Source: Monosiga brevicollis MX1
Taxonomy: Eukaryota > Opisthokonta > Choanoflagellata > Craspedida > Salpingoecidae
Direction: 5' to 3'
Assembly: GCF_000002865.3 (NCBI RefSeq)
Contig: NW_001865055.1
Location: 533,029-597,028, forward strand
Length of the DNA stretch: 64,000 nt
The notes under the pieces were generated by a model. That model was given only the letters and a program-made list of their open reading frames with translations, was not told the DNA's origin and ran no database searches. The translations under genes and the position numbers were made by a program. Position 1 is the stretch's first letter. The number at the start of each line of letters is the position of its first letter. This document shows, one piece after another, positions 11,637 to 26,411 of the stretch.

Positions 11637-13624
11637 TTACCAGTCGCGTTCGGGTAGCTGGAGGCTTTCGTCGAGCATGTCACTCAGATGACCAGCAATA
11701 CGCTCGCGCTTGGGGACATAACGCTTGATGCGCAAGACTACGGCGCGGGCGATATAATGGGTGCCTTGTTCATCGGAAGATCCGTCGTGTCCAGCCACAG
11801 CGGGGTTAGCAGCCGCGGGGTCTGCGGGGAGACCCCCAGCGGCTGCCGGGGTGTCGTCGTTGCGGGGCCGTGAAGCCGACAAGGGTGCGGTGGCGTTGAA
11901 CGCAGCCTCGTCAAAGACTTCACCAGGGTTCAAAAAGCGTACCCAAACATCTGACTCATCCAAGGTGAATGCGTAATCGCGATCTGCACACTTTTCGCGC
12001 CGATAATTGCTACGAGGATCTGCTCACAGTCAAGCAGAGGCATAAAAAAATAAGACATCACACTCACAAGCGAATGACAAGCAAGGACACAAGAAAAACT
12101 GAGGCAAAGAACCAAAGACGAGCCAACCCAAACTAGAAAGACCTACCAGCGGCCAAGATGCTGCTTACGGCCTCTTTGTATTCGTCAATTGATTCAAAGT
12201 ACTGCAGGTGCGGAGCTGGGGGCACACGCAGGCGCATCAAAGTCAGCGAGGACAGGACGCCGAGATTCAAAGGGAGGGAGCAGGTCAAGAAAGGAAAACG
12301 ACGACACAGCGGGGTGGAGCGGAGCGTACCGACGTCCTGAAGTTGCTGCTCGGCAGCGCTGGTGTATTGAACCTGCAGCTCCGTGCGTTTTGCCTCTGTT
12401 ACCCAGGGAGCGATGCGCACTTCGTCGACAGGGCGATCAAAAAACGGCAGATAGGGCTTGACATCGAGGACGGGCGTGCCATCGACCAGATCAATGCCAG
12501 CCAGAATGATGGTGTCGCCTTCAATGCGATGCACTTTGCAGAGGCTGAGACCAATGGGGTTGGGGCGATGTGGCGATCGGGTGGCCATGACGCCAACACG
12601 CAAGCCACCGGCTTTGGGAGGACGAATCTAACATGCAGCAGGCAAGCCACGTCGCCCTCGATCAAGACGCATGGAGACTGACGGGACAGGCTCAAGACAG
12701 GACACAATACCTTGGGCTTGACGGCCACGTTGTCATTGAGATGGAAAAGAAAGATGATCCACACATGGGAGTAGTGATGCAGCCCTTCCAATGCTGGATG
12801 ATTGTCATTGAAGCAGCGCAATCTGAGTTTGGCCCGAGACATGGGGCAGAGGTTGGGTTGCCGCGGGGTTCCGTTCTAGGTGGTGCGAGAAAGGCATCCG
12901 CTTCATCAGCAAAGAGGGGCGCACATCTTCGAAGGTGTATGACGCTTTCCAAAAGTGCTTGTCCTACCTTGCGTTTGAAACATGACTCGATGTAACCGAT
13001 GGGCTTCAAAGCTTCGTTCCAGTCGGCTCGCTCGTGAATGTCAGCTGGAGACGGGATCGATTCCACGGGTCAAAACAAGCTATGGTTAAAGCGAGGGCGG
13101 AAATGGCGCACAAAGGTAGCGGTGCACCTGGTAGCGATGCATCGGGCTGAGAAGCGCCATGGGCGGAGCCCTTGTCCTCGCGTGCGTTGAGTCGATTGGC
13201 CACGAGGAAGCGCAGGTGTTCCATCTGCAGATGGTGCACTGCGGGTCATCAAAAGTGCAGCGGAATGTGCCGGGGGGCTGCAAGCCTCCCAGAGACCAGG
13301 AAACCTTGAAGAATAAGCCTCACCTGTTTCTCATGCTTGCGCATCATGTCCTTAAATTGCCGGTTGGCGCGCTGGAGTTCCAGCTTGTTGGCCTGCGTTC
13401 CAGCATTCAAGATTCACAGCGTCAGCTCAATGATGCGTGCGGTTGTGGTCGCCACGTTCAGCCATGTGTTGTTGTCCACATGCAACACGCACTTTGAGCA
13501 ATCCTTCAAGCCCGCGAATTTGATCTTGCAGCCGCTGCTTCTCGGATTTGGCAGCCCGTTCCCCCTGAACCGCCTCCAACGACACCGCCGCTCCCGCTGT
13601 CGTCATCGCGCTGTCGTCCGTCAT
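11637..13624 (-). CDS. TRMO: tRNA (adenine(37)-N6)-methyltransferase, TrmO/TsaA family
   Basis: ATG at 13624 (MTDDSAMTTAG); stop TAA 11637-11639. An N-terminal coiled segment (KSEKQRLQDQIRGLEGLLK, then LVANRLNARED) resembles the animal form. The TsaA/YaeB core follows: KPIGYIESCFKRK, MSRAKLRLRCFNDNHPALEG, YSHVWIIFLFHLNDN, then the SAM-site signature MATRSPHRPNPIGLSL and PVLDVKPYLPFFD. A C-terminal extension (RAVVLRIKRYVPKRERI) ends the protein. Family members use S-adenosylmethionine to N6-methylate t6A37 of certain threonine tRNAs. The gene has about six or seven exons with typical GT-AG introns. All signature residues are present, so it should be active. A very long GT microsatellite lies just upstream of the start. 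Confidence 0.92.
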
Positions 13625-13663
13625 TTTTTTTTTTCAAGCAAAATGTCAGAAGAACCACGTGCT

Positions 13664-13811
<148 letters not shown>

Positions 13812-14112
13812 TTCATTTTGTTCTTGTCGCACTGGTTCGGGTTGACCCTCGAGGCCTCTGCCTGGTCTGTCTGTCTCACTCACCTTGCCTCTGTCTCTCA
13901 ACAACGTTGAGGTAACGATGCCAGTGAGGTTGAGAAGAGAGAATGGTGTGGCGGGCAAGGGGTAGCAGTCGTCAAAGTACCTCAACAACATCCAGATTGA
14001 CATGATGTGCGTGCCAAAAACAATTTGCCAGATAACATAATAATTGTTATGGGTGAACCCTCTAAAGCGTAATCATATAAAAACGGAAGGGCGGCTCCTA
14101 AGGCGTGGTTTC

Positions 14113-17100
14113 CTAGAGTGCCGTTTCGTCGTTGATGGAATTAAGAGCGTGCAGTGAGCTTTCCACTACCCCAAAGTCCGGCCGCGCTTCGGGGTCACTG
14201 CTCCAAAGCCGTTCACAGAGACTGCGTGCAAACCACCCGCCACCAAGGATGTTGGGTGGTCAGTCGAAAAGGCTGCCCAAGAAAACATGTTGCTTGAGAC
14301 CAATGGATCGATACGAACCGGCAAACATCTGGTGGGCAAGAGTCTGGCATGGTCAGGCGGCCACCATTCCGAATGAATGCTATGACCGCGGCTGCTGGTA
14401 CACCTGCGTACGGCAGATCCCCACCGCTGAATAGCTCAAACAGCAAAACGCCAAAGCTCCTGCCAAAACACAAGACACATGACACATGACACAGGTGTAA
14501 GGGTACAGCGATATTTGGTGCGCTTGAAAGACCAACGCGCGCCGCATACCAAGCGTCGCTTTTGGGTCCAAATCGTCGAGCCATCACGGCTTCAGGGGCC
14601 ATCCACCTAAACGTATACTCGTTGAAGATGAGGCGTACAAAAAAATATTCTGTTGTTCTTTTTGTTCCCAATTCCACGGTGTGCAAACACAGACCGGAGC
14701 GGCAGTTCCTCATTGCGCAGGCTGCGATAGTAGTCTTGTGACATGTTCAAGACTCGTGCCACTGTGAAAGCAAAGCCCGCGAGCGACGGCAAGTGTGAGA
14801 AATGGCAGATAAAGACGAGATAAATAAAAAAAAAGCAGACGTCAACAATCGGCCTAAAAGGAGCAAGGCGCGCACAGCCAAAATCCGAGAGCTTGACATA
14901 TAGCCGGGGTGTATCAGCAAACACCAGCACATTCTAAAGGAGTCGGACCCAATACATGCATGAGTGGCCACCACGACCAGGACCTGTCCCACAGGCCAGC
15001 CGCTGGGGCCACATGCTTATCGTGCTGACATACACGAGCGGCCAGATCACGATGAACAAGCCCTCGTCGCGATACGAAGACCATGGCCGAGGCCAGCTAT
15101 GGAACACACGAGAAAAAAAAAACAAATGGCAACATGAGCCGCCAGCTTTTTATGAGGCGCAAACAGAAGACCGATGAGCAAGTGCAGTCTCTCGTTTTCA
15201 GCATACCTGCGCTGCAGCATCTGTCATGACGGCCCGGCCTAGATCCCCACGATTCTGGGTCAAATAGCGACGCAAGCTACCATGTGGAGCAAATTCAAAT
15301 ACCAAGGCCATCGAATTTTGATTGATACTAGAGTTAGGAGCCGCGAGAGGTGAGAGGGGTGATGGTGGGTAAAAAGCATGCTGATGGTCGGTTACGCGGC
15401 GAGACAGGCGGGGTGTCAGGGTTCTCGTGACAGAGACCGGGCAAGACCAACACTGTAGGTAAAATCCCAAAGAAAGTGGTGATGTGGGGATGTTCACCCA
15501 CGCGCAACAAGGCACAAAGCTCAGCGAGCATTTCTTCGCGCCAGCGAGGCATATCCTATGGGGCATACCACGGCACCGGCACCAGCGCACCTGGCGAACA
15601 TGAGTCATCGCCCTGGCCTTGCGCTTTCTTGGCTCCAACGATGGTATTGTCTTGCATACCAGGTCGTTGATGGTCTTGACGACAACGCTCGTCGTCACGC
15701 CACCCGGTCTTCTCCACTGAGCTTGTACCACGCGACCAAAGTGCCCGGCCCCAACCACTCCGCCAAGGGTGATGTCCTCCCTGCACACGACAACCAGTTC
15801 CCGAGGACGGTGCAAGCTGCATGTGAGGTCTGCCCAACCATGACCTACGCGTGACCTTGCAGCAACAAAATTTAATGTACAACAACGGATGTTGTCACAA
15901 GCCACATACGTGTTGATCAGACGGACGGCATTGTCATCAAGCTCCATGGAGAGCATAAGACTTTGCCAATCGGCCTTGAGATCTTGCCGTGAGCTGACAA
16001 ATCGCTGCTGGCGGCGGCGCCATAACAAAGCTGCGCCAAGTGCCAACCCAAGCATGCAGAGGCTTACGACGACCGAGACGATGATGACCTGCGCCGAATC
16101 GGCCCTGTTGGTAGCCATTGCGGGCGCTTCATTGGTCAAAGGTTTCAAGCTCGTGGCGCCAGTGGTTGCTGCTTGTAAGTCCTCTCGTGAATCAAATACG
16201 GAGTCAGCCCACAACGCATCAAAATTTGCCAGGAAGGCCTCAGCCTCGGCCGTGGTTGGAGCCGGCTCAGAAGTTGATGCTTCGGCCGAAACGCCCAAGA
16301 TTGAACCATTGAGGACACGAAGGATGCCGTACTGATCGGAAAAGTTGAGGCCAGCTCCACTGCCAGGCATGCGGAAGAAGACGCGTACAAACACAAAGGG
16401 GCGATTTCCAAAAGGCACGGCACTGATCAAGGCCGAGCAATATGGTGGTAATTTAAGGCATACAAGGGGCATGGCGTGGGAAGGGGATACGCATCAAGTC
16501 GAGTGGTGAGACCGGGCAACTGTTGTCGAGGAAGCGAGGTTGGGCGGGCAAATGCGTTTTCGTGAGGTGACGGTGGGCACGGACCGAAAGACTGAGGTGT
16601 ATTGAATGCCTTCGACAGCGCCAGTGGCACGCACGACGCCAAAGCCATCGTGACACGAGTAATTTCGCCCTTGCGTTGGGTCATATGCGGTGTGCACGGA
16701 AGGGTCGATGCGAATGCGCACGGTGCCTCGCCGCAGTTGAACCTGAGAGAGGGAATAGCAAGGTAGATTGGCAAAGACAGGCGAAAGCAGGGCGGTATCC
16801 ACCACGGCCTGACAGCTGGCTTCGTCACTGCCGTCAGGGCAGTCTTGCACGCCATCGCAAATTTGCGTGACACTGTGAGGTTGTCCACCCGGACAAACCT
16901 GGGGTGCGGCGTATGGACAGTGGGAAGCCCCTTGGTAGGGCGGGTCAACGCAGGTGCAGTTGAGCATGACATCGGTGAAGACGACCGCGTTCGACGCGGG
17001 AAAGGCGCAGCTGAATGCGCCAACGGTGGTCACGGTGATGGCAGACTCAGACAGCACACCAGAAGTCCATGCTTGCATGACGCCTTGCCAGTTGACGGCA

Positions 17101-18014
17101 CGCATGAGGGAGAAGACACCCATGTAGCGTATGTTATCACCGCTGACATAGAGATAGAGATCGGTGATGCTTGACCAGCTAGGCAGCGCCACTTGGTCTA
17201 GATTGACCGGGGTATCTCGCAAGAAGATGGCGATTCGGGTCAAGGCACTTTCGCCCGAGGCGGTCAAGAAAGAGTTTTGCCAAAAGTTGGCAGGGAGGCT
17301 GTTAGAGCTGACCGGGCTGATCACAAACTCTCGGATGGTGGCAAACGCGCCTTGCGGTAGGCCGGCCGTCACGACAGTTTTTACAGGCCATGTCGTGCGC
17401 GTACCGAGCACCAGCGTGCCAACGAGCGGCGCTTGATAGAAGGCGGTTAGGTTTGGGAAGCGCTCGTGAATCAAGGTCATGTTGATTACATCCAGCCGTA
17501 CGTCCAGCAACTTGAATTGTGTAAGTGTGGGTAGGTAGGGCAAGTTGTCCACGTTGTCCAGCTCGACTTCGCTGAAAGTGAGGTAAGACAGCTCGAGTTT
17601 GCTCAAAGCCGGTATTGAGGCCCGTAGAGCACTTGGCGTTGGGGTGCTGACTGACGTATCAAAGTTCAGAAAAAGGAACTTGGTTTGTACGGGAATACCC
17701 TCGGGCACGGGGCCAGTCAGGTCGTCGCAATCGAGTCGATAGCTCACAGAACAGTCACAGAGCGTGCAAATGACATCTGTACAGTCCTCGCCCACCCAAG
17801 CGCCATCAACACAGGTGTAGTTGTGCGTGACCGTGGCAGAGCATGGCAAGTGACACTCCCCCGTGCTGGGGTCAATGCGATCCGCCGTGCACCTGCTCAC
17901 AAACCCTGGCACGGGGGTGTTAGCCGTACAGTCATTGTCCCCTGCTGCGCCAAAGGCCAGGCACAGCAGCAGTAGAGTCAACGCCCCAGCGACCAAATGG
18001 AATGAAGGCGCCAT
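14113..18014 (-). CDS. Receptor tyrosine kinase with LDLa-type extracellular module
   Basis: Start chosen at 18014 because MAPSFHLVAGALTLLLLCLA is a good signal peptide; an in-frame Met lies 57 nt upstream. The first large exon (to about 16590) encodes a Cys-containing ectodomain with spaced Leu-rich segments and one LDL-receptor class A motif (CDGVQDCPDGSDEASC). A transmembrane helix follows (VIIVSVVVSLCMLGLALGAA) with a basic stop-transfer RRRQQR. The kinase domain is spread over several exons: glycine loop GAGHFG, lysine VVVKTI, gatekeeper area ALVFEFAPHGSL, catalytic loop HRDLAARN (split at the R/N junction by an intron), DFG, and RWMAPEAV. HRDLAARN plus RWMAPE is the tyrosine-kinase signature, and all catalytic residues are present. 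The C-terminal tail is very short and ends -ETAL, a possible class I PDZ ligand. Ligand unknown. It lies upstream in the same orientation as an SH2-bearing receptor. Confidence 0.88.
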
Positions 18015-18118
18015 CCTCCGCCACCGCCCGCCCCTCACCACAAGACGACGACGACGATGATGACAGCACAACCACGAGCGAGTCGAATGTCAAAAAATGA
18101 CAAAAACAAATGAAAAAT

Positions 18119-18121
<3 letters not shown>

Positions 18122-18170
<49 letters not shown>
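18122..18170. repeat. (CA)n microsatellite
   Basis: About 24 CA units roughly 110 bp upstream (5') of the receptor tyrosine kinase start codon, which is on the minus strand. Confidence 0.95.
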
Positions 18171-18175
<5 letters not shown>

Positions 18176-18246
18176 CGCACCCACAATTGTTGGCTCTCCC
18201 TAAAGTATACGGAGTCTTTCGTATCATGCCCACCTGCTTGTTCTTC

Positions 18247-18318
18247 TGTGGCTCTGTGGCTCTGTGGCTCTGTGGCTCTGTGGCTCTGTGGCTCTGTGGC
18301 TCTGTGGCTCTGTGGCTC
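18247..18318. repeat. Minisatellite: nine perfect copies of an 8-bp unit
   Basis: Unit TGTGGCTC repeated nine times without change over 72 bp, between the kinase receptor gene and the SH2 receptor gene. Because 8 is not a multiple of 3 it gives readable open frames on both strands, but these are not genes. Confidence 0.95.
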
Positions 18319-18552
18319 TGTTTCTTGAGAGCATCGTTGCTGTGCCTCTGTGTGGGGTCTGATGCCGAGAATAAGAGAAAAGAAGCCAGCTGGGCTGGCT
18401 GCAGGCAAACATGATGGTGTCAAACTTGCTGTCAACTATCAGACTTTTGCTTATGTCTTGTCGAATAGCAGCCTCTAAACTGCTCCATGGTGTCTAATGT
18501 GCTCCATTGCATTCCCTAAAGTTGATATCACATCGCGAGTTGATCGACCAGC

Positions 18553-21500
18553 TCAGGCCTGACTTAAACCAGGACCTGCAGTACAGGCGCGTTCGAGGTG
18601 GCAGGGCAACGTCGAGCTTTTATACTTGAGGTGCTCAACCACGTGCTCCAGGGTCGCCAGGGTGTCGGGCAGCGGTGCCTCATTGAGTGAAAACCCCTAT
18701 CGCGCCCACACACCATCAAAATAGGCTTGTGAGCCGGACACACTAGCAGGGCTCTCTGAATCGCCCATGGTACCTTGGCACCTACCGTTGCATCTTGCTG
18801 AAGCAAATGGTGAGAAATATGCCCTCGATGGGCCAAGGTGATGACCCATTGTTGAACTCCCTTATCCCGCACCACAAACAAACCGTCCGTCGCGCCCTAA
18901 CGCACAATCAAAGAGTACCCGACCGTTTCCCAAAGTGGTGAGTGCATCTTTGTTTTTGAACAGACGAAAACCTGCTGCTGGTAGCGCCAAGCCCGATCGA
19001 GCAAGCGAGGAAAATGAAACGGTAAGACGAGCACCACCAACCGCGCTGACAAGCATTTGCTCGGCATCGGCTCGCCCGAGCCCAAGGTGCAACCAGCTTG
19101 GATTCCCATGATTTGGCTCCTCCAGCGATTCATCTGGAACGTCGGACACATCCGTGTACTCGTACAACGCATCCTCGCCCTGTGTTCCCGCTCGTTCTAG
19201 ATCAGCAAAATCACACAGTTACACGTCACGTCGTGCTTTGAACACCTTCACATGCCAACCGATGAGACGCGTCGTACCAGGCAACTCGTAGTCTTGGCCG
19301 GCATCCATGTGCATGGTTGCGCCGTACAGATGTGAGGAACGTCGCTGCTGACGACCAGGCAGCCGTGCTCGCGACACCACGGTAGACCCGGATGGTTTGG
19401 CCGACGCGTACAAGGCACCCGTCTTGGTCGTGTCACTAGTAATAAGCGGAGGCATATCATTGGCTTGATCCACGCCCGGCACCATGTATTCACCCATGGT
19501 TGTCGGGTCCTATTCTCGGCACCAAAGTCAGTGAGTGGAACTGTCGCTGCCCTGAAGATTCGCACTGAAACACAAGCTAGACCTGTGACCGCGTTGCACT
19601 GTGCTGCCACTCTAGAGTTTGCAAAGTTATAGCTTGAAATTTACCTCGGGAGCCGAATAATACACGCGCGGAGCTGTTGCAGTTGCTGTGGCCTCAACAT
19701 CAGCATAGCTATACTCGGGCGGTTGCTCGGCCACCATGGGCTCAGCATAACTCCCAATGTTGTGAACAAAGGGCTCCAGGTACCCATTGTCGGGCGCGAT
19801 GGTAACTGCTGAGAGCTGAGGTTCTACACACCCCAGGGAGAATTTGGTCAAAAAAGAAAAAAAAAAAAAAAACCCCCCAAACAGACATGCGACACAGGCT
19901 TACCACTCGAACGGGATGAGGCGCTCAGCTTGTACATGGGGTTGTCAATCAACATGCCCTTTCCTGACAAGCTTGAATCGCCATGCCGAGCACCCCAGTC
20001 GAGTCCTGGAGACGTGACAGGCTGTTGGGCCGGCTGCACGCGCTTGCGCTGAACCATGATGATGACCAAAGTAATTAACAACACACCGCACACCATGGCG
20101 GCCACCAGGCCGGCAATGAGTGCAACCTCCTGCTTTGACGTCCCACTGCTCTCGCCGCTGCCGCCGCCATTGCCAACGGGATTGGTGCCTGTGGCCATAA
20201 ATGGCACCGTGCTCGAAGACCAAGGTTCCTTCCCACCGTTGCTGACTGTCCAGATGGCGCGCCGCAGGTCGGTGAGCAGCGTAGCTGTGTCAACATGGGC
20301 ATCGGCAGCGGACACGTATGCGCCGTTGACAGTGTCATAAAGCGCAAAGCGCAGATCAAAAGTTCGCTCCACTTGGTTAACCTCCGAGCGACGGCGACGA
20401 CCGTCGCCATCGTCGATCAAAGTGACGCTGACAGATCGCGGGGAGACGCCATCAGGCAGGCGGTCGACCAATAGCTGCTGCAAGAGCGCTTGCAATTCCA
20501 CGGCGCTGATGCTCGCGTTGGTCGTCACCGTTAGGTCAATCCAATACGGAAGCGTCCCATTGGGTGCAAAGGATGAGGATGTCGTGGCATTATCGTGGGC
20601 CAGGTTCCAGTAAATGGCAATGACTTCAGCCTCTCGACAAGACGCTACAACGTCCAAGCTCCCGTCCTTGTCAAAGTCCATAAACCGCACCCCTTCAACG
20701 CCTTCGGCATTGGTATCCAAGAGAAATGGGGCGGTGAATCCGGCAGTGCCGCCCAGATTCAGAAACACCGCCACGGTGTTGGCGTTGTTGCTGGCGCTCA
20801 CCACATCCAAATCGCCATCATCGTCTACATCCGCCAGGTCCAGGTCCATTACACCGTACACCAACTCCGCCAGCACTCGTGGATCTTCAAACTGGTGTGC
20901 AGCCCCTTGGCGATACCAGGTGATGCTGTTGTTGTCATAGTTGCCCGTTACCAAATCGGGAAGCCCGTCGCCATCGACGTCACCCACTCGAACGACGGCG
21001 GCAGCCCCCGTGTGCCCCTGGATCAAGTTCTCTGTGGTCACGCTGAAATTGGCGCTGTCAAAGAGGCTAAGCTGAATGCTGCTATCTAACACGTTGCAAT
21101 GGACCAGTTGGATCCGAGTGTCTGAAAGCAGCTTGACTTCGACGGCTCCGAGAGGCCCAAGCCCGGTAGATGAGTGTGCGACGGCGCTGAGTGCTCCAGA
21201 CTCCTGGCGCAAGTACCATGTCATGTTGCCACTCTGAAAGTCCGTCACGACCAGGTCTGTACGCCCGTCTTCGTTGAGATCTACCGGTGTCAGGCTGCTG
21301 GCCCCGGGAATGCCACTTTGGATGACCGTGGGCGCTCCAAACGTGGTTGCATTGAGGCGTGGATAGAGTGCCACGTTGCCCGTAACGAGAGAGGCTGAGA
21401 CGACATCTGGCCAGGCATGATCTGTTCGGAACAGGGCACGAGCATCGAGCACGCCCGGGGCAGACTGGGAGACTGTGAGGGGACGTGTGACGGCGCGGCC

Positions 21501-23634
21501 GCCAAGATTCGCATACCACAAGATGCTGGCATCAAAGGCAGCAGCACTGAGAATATCAACAAGGCCGTCGGCATTCATATCCACCATCTCAACAGCACCG
21601 GCGCCACCCGATACATCATCTACATTGCTACGCTGAAAGCGCAATGCAGCACAGGGTGCACCGCACGGCGCTGCGGTGGGCCGATTCGTCGTAGTTGTAC
21701 TCGTCGTTGTGGTTACAATAGGCTCAGTGGTCGGCAGACTGGAATCCGTGGTGCTTACCCCAAATGTGGTTGCGACCGACGATGAAGGCACGGTTGTGGC
21801 TGCAACACTCGTAGTAGGAGCGGCAGTTGTCAACGTCGTGGCTGATGGAGAAACAACAGAGGTTGAACTCAAAGTGGGTGAGGTGTGGCGTGCCGTGGTC
21901 GTGGTCGTGGTCGTGGTCGTGGCTACATGCTGCTCGCACATGGTTCCAACGTAATCTTCAGGGCAAGTACAGGTGTACCCTTGGGAGGCGAGCACACAGG
22001 TGGCCCCGTTCTGACAAGCGTGTTGGTCACAGTAAGAGTTGGCACAGGTTGTGCCAGTATAGCCCAGGTCACAAGTGCACTGATATCCACCCCACGTGTT
22101 GGTACAGGATCCATGGCCACTGCATGGCTCCGCAAGGGCTGTGCACTCATCGACATCGTTGTTGCAGGATTTGCCGGTAAAGGTGGGCGGACAGTTGTCG
22201 CAGCGATAGTCTTGGCCATGGCGGAGCGAGGTCCAAACAATGATGATGAGCAATGTGTCATGGGTGCATTGCAAAGTGTCGCGAGGCATATTTCGTACTT
22301 ACCGGCGTAGTTGTTGATATTGACGCAGGAGGCACCATTGCTACACGTGCGCAGCGTGCATGGCTCGGCGACGCACCCAAGGAATTTATCGTGGTAATAG
22401 CCACTCAAGCACCCATACGTGTTTAAATCCCCTGCGCATCGGGGCACATGAGTTTCTCAAGACAAGCGCAAGATATGGCATAGCATACAGAGCAAAACAA
22501 AGGAGGGGAGGGGCATGAGTTCGCACAGCCTTCGTATTCCACTAGGATATCAAGAGTATCACTGCAGGCTCGGTCATCCCAGCTGCCGTCTGGATCCCAA
22601 GCCACACAGTCCGCTGCGAGTACGACCAGCGTTTTGCAAAGGCATTCAAAGAATGGTTTGTGTATGAGGTGGAGGGGAGTCGCCAAAGAACGGAAGAGGC
22701 TGATGCTTTTGCAGTTCAGGGGCCAGACACGTACAGCGCCACCAGGATACGGAAAAGGGCTCGCAGAAAAGGTCATTGAGACAAGTGACTTGACCGTTCC
22801 AACGGTTACCAGAGCCAAATTGCATGCCTTTTTCTGGCCCCTCTACCCAAGTGTAGGTGCCAGCGCTGCTAGCATCGGACCCGCCGAGCCAAAGGGGCGC
22901 TACGCATGGTTGCATGGTGCAAGGTGAGGCTGTCATCCAGCACCCTTTAAACAGGCCCAAATCGCACATCACACAAGCGTGCGAGCAAAGAACCAATCAA
23001 CAAAAACTTGCAAGTAATGGCAAGGTTGGCAGCAATAAAGTTGTATTCTTCCGCGGTTCTGCGAAATCGCAAGGTGAGGGCAGGCAGGTGCGTGAGCGAC
23101 CGTGGCTTTGAGGGTTGGGGTGGGCAGGCCGCGAATGACAAACGTAATTGTCGCGAGATGGCCGCGGAAAAAGGTTTCGGGGCCTTCTGAAATCATGAGC
23201 TGCTCTGCATATCCGTCTGAAGTCCAGAAACTGCTATCAATCTGTCATCCAGGTTCACAATTCATTCAGATCAATTCGGCCCTGCCTGGCGCCGCACGAG
23301 TTGGCGGAGATGTTTCCGACACAATACCTTGATGATGTCATAGGAATGGCCGTTTCTCGGCCAAAAGACAATCCCGGCGGCATGGCCTAGAAAGTACAGG
23401 GACATGGAGGGCAAAGGCAAGGGGAAGGAGAAGGAGGCGGAGGAGGCGGCGGAGGAGAAGGAGGAAGAGGAGGAGGAGGAGGAGGAGCGGCGTGAGCCAA
23501 CGCTCGAGAGGGAAAAATGGAGGGGCCATTCATGAGGAAAACGCTATTTTCATACCACAAAGCCACAAGGCAGCCAAGAGCACCCGCCAGGACCTGGACC
23601 TGAACCCCAGGCCCGGTGCTGAGCAACGCGACAT
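18553..23634 (-). CDS. Transmembrane receptor: C-type lectin, EGF, FG-GAP repeats, Tyr-rich tail and cytoplasmic SH2
   Basis: Proposed start 23634 (signal peptide RVLLAALWLCG). Exons then build a C-type lectin domain: NGHSYDIIK, FWTSDGYAEQLMISEGPETF, GHLATIT, PLWLGGSDASSAGTYTWVEG, CVAWDPDGSWDDRAC. EGF modules follow (CTLRTCSNGASC; calcium-binding type NDVDECTALAEPCSGHGSC; CDQHACQNGATC), then a Thr/Ser-rich stalk and about five FG-GAP/VCBS-like calcium repeats (DVDGDGLPDLV, DVDDDGDLDVV, DFDKDGSLDVV). Next come a region before the membrane and a single helix (VALIAGLVAAMVCGVLLITL) with QRKR. The cytoplasmic tail has many tyrosine motifs (DNPMYKL, NGYLEPF, GEYMVPG, QDYELPG, LYEYTDV), then an SH2 domain (PSWLHLGLGRADAEQML, GLFVVRDKG with the phosphotyrosine-binding Arg, HISHHLL, LEHVVEHL). 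Stop TGA 18553-18555. Inferred role: cell-surface receptor feeding tyrosine-kinase signalling. N-terminal exons and the exon between the lectin pieces (about 22650-22790) are least certain. Confidence 0.75.
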
Positions 23635-24294
23635 GAACGTTGCCTGAGGTTTGGCCCTGCACTGGTCTTGGTCGATCCGCCAGCGCAACCAGACTTGAGC
23701 TCGCTTTTCACAACTCGGCGAAGGAACAGGATGGCGAAAGGGGGGGCGCAGTAAAGCAGAAAAGAATGCAGTCAAGAGGAAGAAGAAGGACGAGGAGGAG
23801 GAGAAGGAGGAGGAGGAGGAGGAGGAGGAGGAGGAGGAAGGAGGAGGAAGGTGCAGCAGCACAAGCACAGGTCGGTGTCAGGAGAAACAAACAAATGGGC
23901 CAGTCGGGTTTTCTTCGTCTCTCTGTTTGATCATGGGCTTCGGACCAAGTCTCTGGCGCAATAGTTGTTTTCGCTTATCTTTGCCGCTCTTCCGTCTCTG
24001 TTGCAGTCTCTATCTCTGGCGCCGGCTCTGGTTTGGCCGCTTGTCTCTGCAACGTTGTGGTGGATGTCACGCACATTTGGAGGTTGCGCGTGCGGCGCGT
24101 GCCACGATCATGCCCAATGTCAGATTATACAACTGCATTATGTGTGTTTTACTAACCATTAACTGCGTTGTATTTATAGTGTACTCTCCATTGTATTTCC
24201 AGACCGACTGCAATAACTTGATGAAAAACAACAAAAACCTCTACTGCCCTTGGCGCTGCTTTGGCTGCGCTTTGAGCCAGCTGAGCCAGCTGGC
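23635..24294. other. Intergenic region between SH2 receptor and MFS transporter
   Basis: About 660 bp holding the promoter of the SH2 receptor and the 3' UTR of the transporter, both on the minus strand. Apart from the purine tract and an AT-rich stretch near 24120-24240, I see nothing gene-like. Confidence 0.5.
23790..23850. repeat. (GGA/GAA)n purine-rich low-complexity tract
   Basis: Trinucleotide purine tract on the + strand, with a second one near 23415-23490. The first lies just 5' of the SH2-receptor start. The second falls in its first intron, where it reads as a CT-rich polypyrimidine stretch on the coding strand. Confidence 0.8.
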
Positions 24295-26411
24295 TCACTT
24301 GGCGGGGGCGCGACCAAAGTCGAGGCGCCGAGTCACCGTTGTCGTTGCATCAAGAAGTTGACCGCGTGGAATCGGGTCTGATGTCCCGAGAAACCAATAC
24401 GCCAAACCCCCCGTGGCGTACACCATGGCGACCAAGGCGAAAACGGCCTGCCACGTCCCAAAGGCTGCATTGATGTAGGCCGCCACCGGCACGCCCACAA
24501 CCCCAGAGAGCGCCGCAAGACTGTTACTGATGCCCTGCAATAGTCCCACAAACTCGGTGGGCGCCACGTCCAACTTGGCTGCCTCGTGACCTACCACCCA
24601 AGCTGGGGTCAGAGACAAGCCGCGTCCACTGGCCCAGACACGATGTCAGCCGCGGGTCAATTTGCATACCGTTGGTTGAGAGGCCGGACATGCCAATGGA
24701 AAAGGAGAGCAGGGCCGTGGTCAAACCGCCCTGGGGTAGAAGCAGTACCAGCAGCATGGCCCCGGCTGCCAAGCCATAGCTAATGGCCTCACAGAGGCGT
24801 CGAACCCCTGAGTTTTGCAACCATGCGCGATCCGGTGAGCCGACGCCAATGTCGATGTCGACGCCGACGGTTCAAACTCGGGCCAACACAGTCACAAGAG
24901 CAGTCCCGTCGGCGTCGGTCGATGGTCCCGCGATACGTACGTGACTTGTCCACGCCGGCTCGGACGAAGTGATCAGCGACAAAGGCCCCTCCCATGCTCG
25001 TGCTCATCATGATGATGTAAGGTGCCATGAGCTGCGAGGCATGGGAACGATGCCCCGTCGGGCCGGCCGACACCTAGAACAGGGATAGCAAGGTGGGCAT
25101 GATAAATGAGCGCTGGGCTCGGCCACGGGTTCACGTCATTGACGTTTTTTTTTTTTTTTTGTTTCTGGTCCAAAAACACACCCCGGCGTCGAGCTCGTCG
25201 TAGTAGGTGGGAAGCCAGGACAAAGCCAAAAAATGACAAAAGGCGTGGGCAAAGTGCCCAACAAAGATGGCACGGCAGTTTGGATGCAAAAACAAGCGCC
25301 AGGCGATCCGGGCCTGCAAGCGCCAATCCTCGCCGGCCACTGTAGCACCAGGCGTCCCAGCACGGGTCACTGGTGGCGATCCTGGGCTTTGGCGAACCAC
25401 CAACAGCCATACGACCAGCCAAACCAAACCCCAGCTACCAAAGAGATGAAAGATAAAAGGCCAAGGCCGCGATGCCAGCAAATGCTCACTGAATGCCAGT
25501 GTAAAGACGGTGCCTGCCAGGCGCCAGGGTCAGGAGCACGGGATATGTGAGCGCTGCTGCAGGCACGTCACACGCTCTGCATAGCATGTGGGGCGTGGTG
25601 TGTGGCATGGGGTAGCTGACACTGATGTTGCGCTGCAAGACAAACCGAAGAAGGTGGCCGTGGTTTGTAGGCTGATGTTGCGCGAGCGCAGCTCGGGATG
25701 GGAGGCACTGAGAATGTCATAGACACATGGAAAACACATGCCCTCAAAGACGCCCAAGATGACGCGGACGCCGTAAATGACCGTCTCGCCCTCTTCTGCT
25801 GCCGTGGGTGTCCAGATGGTCAGAACAGACCATCCCAACGCCGCCACGGCCAAGACGCGGCGGGCTCCAAATCGAAGGGCCAGCATTGACCTGTACACCA
25901 TCAGACGTCAGAGGACTCACCTGACTGGCTCGGCACAAACCCTATCCAACACCACTGACCCAAGAAGCTGGCTCGTCAGGTACCCGATGAAGAAGGCGCC
26001 CATGATATGCCCCACTTGGATCTGGTGTGCACAGCAACTTGATTTTAGCTCGGACGACTGCAGCAACTGTCATTGCCATGCCTGGCCCAAACAAGCAGCA
26101 ATGGCTCTTCAATAGCAATGCAATGTACCTTGGACCAGCCAAAATCATCCTTCATGGCAAGCACGGCCACGGAAATGTTGACACCTAGACACCGCGCCGA
26201 AATGAGCCGAAATGAGCCACACGCTGCGAGTGAGTCGGCACGCCGGCACAGGGCGGCTCGGCGGCAACTTACGATCGCAGTAGTTGATAAACATGATCAC
26301 GGCACACAACCAGACGATATGGCGGGGAACCCCAGGCCCAGACCCAGCCATGCTCTTGGCCCCAGCCCCCAACCCCGCCCCCATACCTGCCATTTCTACA
26401 GCCACCGTCAT
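24295..26411 (-). CDS. MFS transporter of the SLC17 / PHT4 anion transporter type
   Basis: Starts at 26411 (MTVAVEMAGMG) or at the second Met, 26393; stop TGA 24295-24297. Recognisable membrane segments in order: VWLCAVIMFINYCDR (TM1 with the family NYxDR motif), SVAVLAMKDDFGWSK, GHIMGAFFIGYLTSQLLGS, RFGARRVLAVAALGWSVLTI, GVRVILGVFEGMCFPCVYDI, WPFIFHLFGSWGLVWLVVWL, FVGHFAHAFCHFLALSWLPT (FxHFxxxxxxxxLSWLPTYY is typical), then C-terminal half helices including APYIIMMSTSMGGAFVADH and QAVFALVAMVYATGGLAYWF. Family members move organic anions or phosphate with Na+ or H+ across plasma or organelle membranes; the substrate cannot be read here. About seven to nine exons. A GT microsatellite lies immediately upstream of the start. 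Confidence 0.87.

Follow-up and report, generated by a model that had tools for sequence, protein, structure and literature searches.

We analysed a 64,000-nucleotide stretch of the genome of the choanoflagellate Monosiga brevicollis MX1 (contig NW_001865055.1, positions 533,029 to 597,028; hereafter the window), in which a minus-strand gene between positions 23634 and 18553 most likely encodes, judging from its sequence, a cell-surface receptor with its own phosphotyrosine-reading SH2 domain. The predicted architecture can be read from end to end: an ectodomain with lectin-like, EGF and FG-GAP parts, a membrane helix, an NPMY motif, five YxxP motifs among 13 tyrosines, and a C-terminal SH2 domain (Table 1).

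The gene was assembled by hand as 13 exons encoding 1242 residues, open throughout, with GT-AG borders at 12 of 12 introns and intron lengths of 80-196 bases. Its limits, from the ATG at 23634 to the end of the stop codon at 18553, are those of a first-pass annotation that had proposed one minus-strand gene with a membrane helix and a C-terminal SH2 domain, and the N-terminus was built with that start coordinate known. Our first gene models used another start and contained at least one non-GT donor each, and they were replaced by the all-GT-AG model; a start at 23529 (MAPPFF...) was given up, since the ATG at 23634 connects to the rest of the model in phase through a GT-AG intron. Trained on seven loci elsewhere in the genome (L056-L062), codon usage favoured the model frame in 11 of the 13 exons. 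The misses were exons 1 and 2, which hold the signal peptide and the start of the lectin-like region, and the N-terminus is therefore the least certain part of the model. For the signal peptide named by the first-pass annotation, exon 1 offers a signal-peptide-like start of an open reading frame with a GT donor, without support from codon usage.

Once spliced, the SH2 domain (PF00017; residues 1139-1230 approximately) scored 27.6 bits against a Pfam cut-off of 21 and covered profile positions 1-73 of 77, whereas it was absent from unspliced scans. A genome-wide SH2 scan of the 39.47 Mb assembly (57 contigs) returned 114 matches, with the window SH2 not among them, likely because two introns split it. 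Its best sequence matches in PDB were tandem chains of ZAP-70 (57.8 bits over both SH2 domains, 35.1 for the better single one). ZAP-70 and SYK, however, carry their tandem SH2 domains in a soluble kinase, whereas Pfam listed no kinase family for the window gene, either in four spliced pieces or across 18001-24300 unspliced in three frames. When the window SH2 was aligned with ten related SH2 domains of the same genome, two of them (L026 and L035) from loci where no helix was seen, R11, R31 and H50 were invariant in all 11 rows; we take these to be the alphaA2 Arg, betaB5 Arg and betaD4 His of the phosphotyrosine pocket. The window domain can thus be read as keeping its phosphotyrosine-binding residues, including the Arg of GLFVVRD that had been singled out beforehand as key. 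In 10 of the 11 aligned domains, a second His follows the betaD4 His (HH, strand D).

The ectodomain was largely as first annotated. EGF, EGF_CA, FG-GAP and FG-GAP_3 reached their Pfam cut-offs in the receptor gene, with three EGF and six FG-GAP_3 stretches passing; the FG-GAP repeats, which the first-pass annotation had called calcium-binding, include five D-x-D/N-x-D-G-type loops. One strong hydrophobic helix follows at residues 898-920 (Kyte-Doolittle maximum 3.08), again as annotated. The C-type lectin fared less well. Exons 2-6 gave 65 phmmer matches among PDB sequences (best E 0.0011), of which the best 60, inspected by name, are presumably proteins with C-type-lectin-like domains. Neither Pfam nor NCBIfam listed a lectin family there; for Pfam (PF00059) this means no match at E <= 10 in the spliced pieces, with HMMER filters dropping most matches above about 0.1. 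The Pfam and PDB lectin searches were run with an earlier N-terminus (MSLY...) in place of the final one, and what normally forms the centre of a C-type-lectin domain is missing at the exon 5/6 junction. The domain search that the first-pass annotation had recommended returned SH2, EGF and FG-GAP, with Lectin_C not listed. Against the genome, the lectin-like region gave six matches, all within the receptor gene itself and none at a paralog elsewhere; the genome has 16 Lectin_C matches, none inside the window. Among 142 ectodomain matches, three FG-GAP relatives (L010-L012) were read in their own frames and had no helix downstream of the repeats, and none of the SH2 domains collected from the genome belongs to them. 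A shared SEA-like juxtamembrane domain with RRRR was suspected from an alignment and dropped, leaving just the polybasic site, after a profile built from six paralogs did not show the window reading frame among its listed matches, down to E of about 29; when each paralog was left out in turn, five were recovered with E no higher than 1.5e-4, whereas L059 reached 0.016.

Between helix and SH2 domain, the tail has 219 residues and 13 tyrosines, consistent with the first-pass count of at least eight in likely phospho-motifs, which had named neither the five YxxP nor the NPMY. The YxxP motifs (YLEP, YAEP, YSAP, YMVP and YELP) exceed an expectation of 1.31 (p=0.004), and proline occurs 0, 0, 5, 1, 1 and 1 times at positions +1 to +6 after tail tyrosines; this enrichment and the NPx[YF] motif were both picked after the tails had been read. 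Across the seven paralogs L056-L062, the counts of YxxP between helix and first SH2 were 0, 5, 3, 1, 15, 8 and 14, with shuffle p <= 0.0132 in five of them. In six of the eight tails compared (window and L056-L062), NPx[YF] occurred no more than 60 residues past the helix, a frequency approached neither in 20,000 shuffles (at most 2) nor in control windows (3 of 534).

These paralogs came from an inspection of 31 SH2 places (11 on the plus strand, 19 further ones and L064) in a genome with 114 SH2 matches. A strong helix and an SH2 domain share one uninterrupted frame at eight of them, namely L056-L062 and the cadherin-type L064. This is a lower bound, because most places were seen with 1.5 kb flanks only and three of the helices (L060-L062) appeared after extension; L063, likewise extended, showed no helix in its SH2 frame. 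L007, L029 and L027 were left out of the receptor count, their hydrophobic stretches being weaker (2.11 at L007 and 2.19 at L029; poly-Phe following the SH2 at L027). Five of the seven paralogs L056-L062 have two SH2 domains. L056 (C54:137900-147600) is a 2987-residue uninterrupted frame with 19 TNFR Cys-rich stretches, ephrin-receptor-like Cys repeats, one helix and two C-terminal SH2 domains, whereas L057-L062 have bacterial-surface Ig-like ectodomains (with HYR in some) and one or two SH2 domains, several with tyrosine repeats of the YDQPNA or YEEPV type. Membrane-type SH2 domains clustered on a tree of 30 rows (those with near-full coverage among 51 collected domains), as few changes being reached in 0 of 500 shuffles. 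On this tree, in which only 2 of the 27 inner branches were starred, the window SH2 paired with L036_501, the SH2 of L059 (94/89, just below the star mark of the tree tool). Its highest identity was 37%, to L023_501. Separately, the SH2 frame at L026 (C30:265681-268938) carries long tandem repeats that contain tyrosine (DVYDGVE, ELYLAQGK), and no helix was seen in it.

We weighed whether the exons belong to one functional gene at all. If the membrane receptor stopped shortly past 19645 and the exon 10 methionine (GACAACCATGGGTG) began an independent soluble SH2 protein, this would fit the position of that methionine, in what we take to be a good context, and the stop codon met 15 bases past the exon 9 donor on read-through. 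However, the frame carries over in phase from exon 9 to exon 10 across a 135-base GT-AG intron, YxxP motifs stand on either side of the join, and intron 9 scores as non-coding even in its best frame (-0.11, codon usage). The NPMY motif sits in the membrane exon itself, tying this exon to the paralog family independently of the splice joins, and the window SH2 groups with membrane-type SH2 domains. A single gene, as predicted here, gains further support from the eight loci of the same genome at which a single frame holds both helix and SH2, and we regard a split into two genes as very improbable. That the locus is a pseudogene or a misassembled join of unrelated exons seems to us scarcely credible: the lectin part is indeed divergent and not listed by Pfam, but the chain of 1242 open codons, its codon usage and the preserved residues of the phosphotyrosine pocket all argue otherwise.

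What the SH2 domain binds is a further matter. It might act mainly in cis, switching the receptor off by folding back onto a phosphotyrosine in the tail of the same chain instead of linking receptors, and the presence of an SH2 domain and 13 tyrosines in one chain would allow this; yet most paralogs have two SH2 domains, and in one the stretch from the helix to the first SH2 is free of tyrosine, so that we consider the reading unlikely. Capture of a phosphorylated kinase as a dedicated catalytic partner, for example the product of the gene next door, appears distinctly unlikely to us: a tyrosine-kinase gene does come next on the same strand, but in eukaryotes little can be concluded from two genes being neighbours.

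The window gene has published relatives, as the first-pass annotation had anticipated for choanoflagellates. To our knowledge, the SH2 domains of animals reside in soluble proteins, which are recruited to receptors. In 2016, YxxP-repeat membrane proteins ending in SH2-like domains were described (A9VAL3 and A9V449 of M. brevicollis, PTSG_05573 of Salpingoeca rosetta; PMC5043372), and in 2011 a cadherin-SH2 membrane protein of M. brevicollis, gene model 11339 (PMC3082566). The window gene shares with the 2016 class three features, namely a membrane helix, several cytosolic YxxP and a C-terminal SH2, and differs in its ectodomain, which is lectin-like, EGF and FG-GAP in place of the TSP1, Cys-rich GFR and DUF5011 reported there. 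Gene model 11339 corresponds to L064, where its FSNPMYA adjoins the SH2 and the helix lies in the same frame; it has in common with the window gene a helix, NPx[YF] and SH2 in one frame, whereas its ectodomain is of cadherin type according to PMC3082566 and its SH2 lacks the HH motif. Because this layout was published in 2016 and 2011, the architecture of the window gene is neither unique nor new. We conclude that, by its predicted domains, the gene is most likely a further member of this small membrane-SH2 class, with a lectin-like/EGF/FG-GAP ectodomain. A literature search found nothing joining FG-GAP, SH2 and choanoflagellate, which says little, as key papers and supplements were outside its reach. 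Together, the NPx[YF] and HH-SH2 features give a concrete means to collect the receptor family.

Two published binding results, obtained with sequences other than the window gene, bear on how such a tail may work: the SH2 domain of M. brevicollis Crka1 binds phospho-YxxP peptides (PMC5043372), and an HMTK1 PTB-kinase construct was targeted via an NPVpY peptide (PMC3082566). The array also recalls BCAR1/p130Cas, whose YxxP docking sites are of the kind bound by the Crk SH2 (PMC5043372). The N-terminal SH3 and the FAT-like domain of BCAR1/p130Cas, however, found no Pfam match listed in the receptor gene, which in turn adds a membrane helix and an SH2 domain. A candidate adaptor is L005, a frame with an SH2 best matched by CRKL and an SH3 read by eye. 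Its SH2 reached only 73.9 bits against 2RVF, the structure of M. brevicollis Crka1 (PMC5043372), and is not identical to it; L005 may be crka2. No second Crk-like frame was found within the 1.5 kb flanks examined.

On these grounds, we give an even chance to the view that the gene encodes a single-pass, kinase-less docking receptor for phosphotyrosine signalling, which would be phosphorylated by other kinases, recruit Crk-type adaptors and cross-link receptors through its SH2 domain. Ligand binding or clustering of the receptor would bring in a tyrosine kinase, which could be an HMTK-like PTB-kinase docking at NPMY, a kinase of Src type or the product of the neighbouring kinase gene, and the recruited kinase would phosphorylate the tail. 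Phosphorylated YxxP sites could then recruit Crk-type adaptors, while the SH2 domain would bind phosphotyrosine on neighbouring receptors or kinases, and phosphorylated receptors would therefore cluster.

Several observations weigh against this view. The betaD5 residue of the window SH2 is His, whereas strand D of Src-type SH2 domains reads H-Y, betaD5 usually being Tyr. Among the matches listed for the six-paralog juxtamembrane profile, down to E of about 29, the window reading frame did not appear. Of the 25 tail tyrosines of L059, whose SH2 is nearest in the tree, only one is in a YxxP, and L056 lacks tyrosine altogether from its helix up to its first SH2; the YxxP rule is therefore not universal. 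NPx[YF] is lacking in L057 and L061.

More broadly, though we think it somewhat unlikely, the window gene could be one of a varied set of related kinase-less receptors whose single chain serves as phosphotyrosine ligand and as reader alike: NPx[YF] would recruit a PTB-kinase, the tail would be phosphorylated, and SH2 domains of the HH type would link neighbouring tails into a lattice beside the Crk-docking array, with exchangeable ectodomains (lectin/EGF/FG-GAP, TNFR-like, bacterial-Ig-like, cadherin). If true, this would amount to a two-way phosphotyrosine receptor logic, of which we know no case in animals. By its predicted proteins, M. brevicollis has a set of genes that place the reader within the receptor itself, in most cases with YxxP arrays of the kind that the Crka1 SH2 binds as phosphopeptides (PMC5043372), and this opens the origin of adhesion-linked Crk signalling to direct tests in a single-celled organism closely related to animals.

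Table 1. Features of the SH2-receptor gene, in window positions
Feature	Position	Strand	Basis and remarks
Exon 1: signal-peptide-like start (MSRC...WRVLLAALWLCG)	23556..23634	-	Open reading frame and GT donor; no codon-usage support; N-terminus least sure
Exons 2-6: divergent C-type-lectin-like region	22527..23386	-	GT-AG, open frame; PDB phmmer best E 0.0011
Exon 2	23386-23323	-	No codon-usage support
Exon 3	23230-23144	-	
Exon 4	23058-22994	-	
Exon 5	22899-22810	-	
Exon 6	22613-22527	-	
Exon 7: EGF modules begin	22303..22431	-	Pfam EGF, spliced piece
Exon 8: EGF, Thr/Ser-rich linker, FG-GAP, juxtamembrane with RRRR, membrane helix, tail start	19904..22210	-	Pfam, hydropathy, single open frame
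FG-GAP repeats (six FG-GAP_3 stretches, five D-x-D/N-x-D-G-type loops)	20532..21626 (limits estimated)	-	Pfam, motif positions
RRRRS, possible furin-like site outside the membrane (putative function)	20385..20399	-	Sequence
Membrane helix LIAGLVAAMVCGVLLITLVIIMV	20052..20120	-	Hydropathy
NPMY motif, candidate PTB docking site	19932..19943	-	NPx[YF] in 6/8 compared tails
Exon 9: tail with YLEP, YAEP, PPEYSYADV, YSAP	19645..19823	-	Sequence, codon usage
Exon 10: tail with YMVP, YELP	19278..19509	-	Sequence, codon usage
Exon 11: LYEYTDV and SH2 start (alphaA Arg)	19042..19196	-	Pfam, sequence
Exon 12: SH2 core GLFVVRD (betaB5 Arg), SHHLL (betaD4 His)	18786..18896	-	Pfam, PDB match, alignment
Exon 13: SH2 end and stop codon	18553..18696	-	Pfam, PDB match

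Downstream of the receptor gene, the neighbouring kinase receptor of the first-pass annotation holds as far as a tyrosine-kinase gene on the same strand (-, 13501-18150) goes: PF07714 pieces were found in three frames at 13.5-18.1 kb, with a sub-threshold LDL-A match and, near 15054, the catalytic loop LVHRDLAAR. The kinase gene has a candidate start codon at 18014, which lies 539 bases past the stop of the SH2-receptor gene, and the interval between the two genes contains a CA repeat (18122-18170) and an exact 9.6-copy 8-base repeat (18245-18321). Upstream, also on the minus strand, lies an MFS transporter gene (PF07690; 24200-27500). Elsewhere in the genome, the 22-base gene-specific part of a primer published for M. 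brevicollis RTKC8 (PMC10263333) has two exact matches, at C21:294549 and C21:304881, each beside a kinase match, which suggests that RTKC8 was recently duplicated or is repeated in the assembly.

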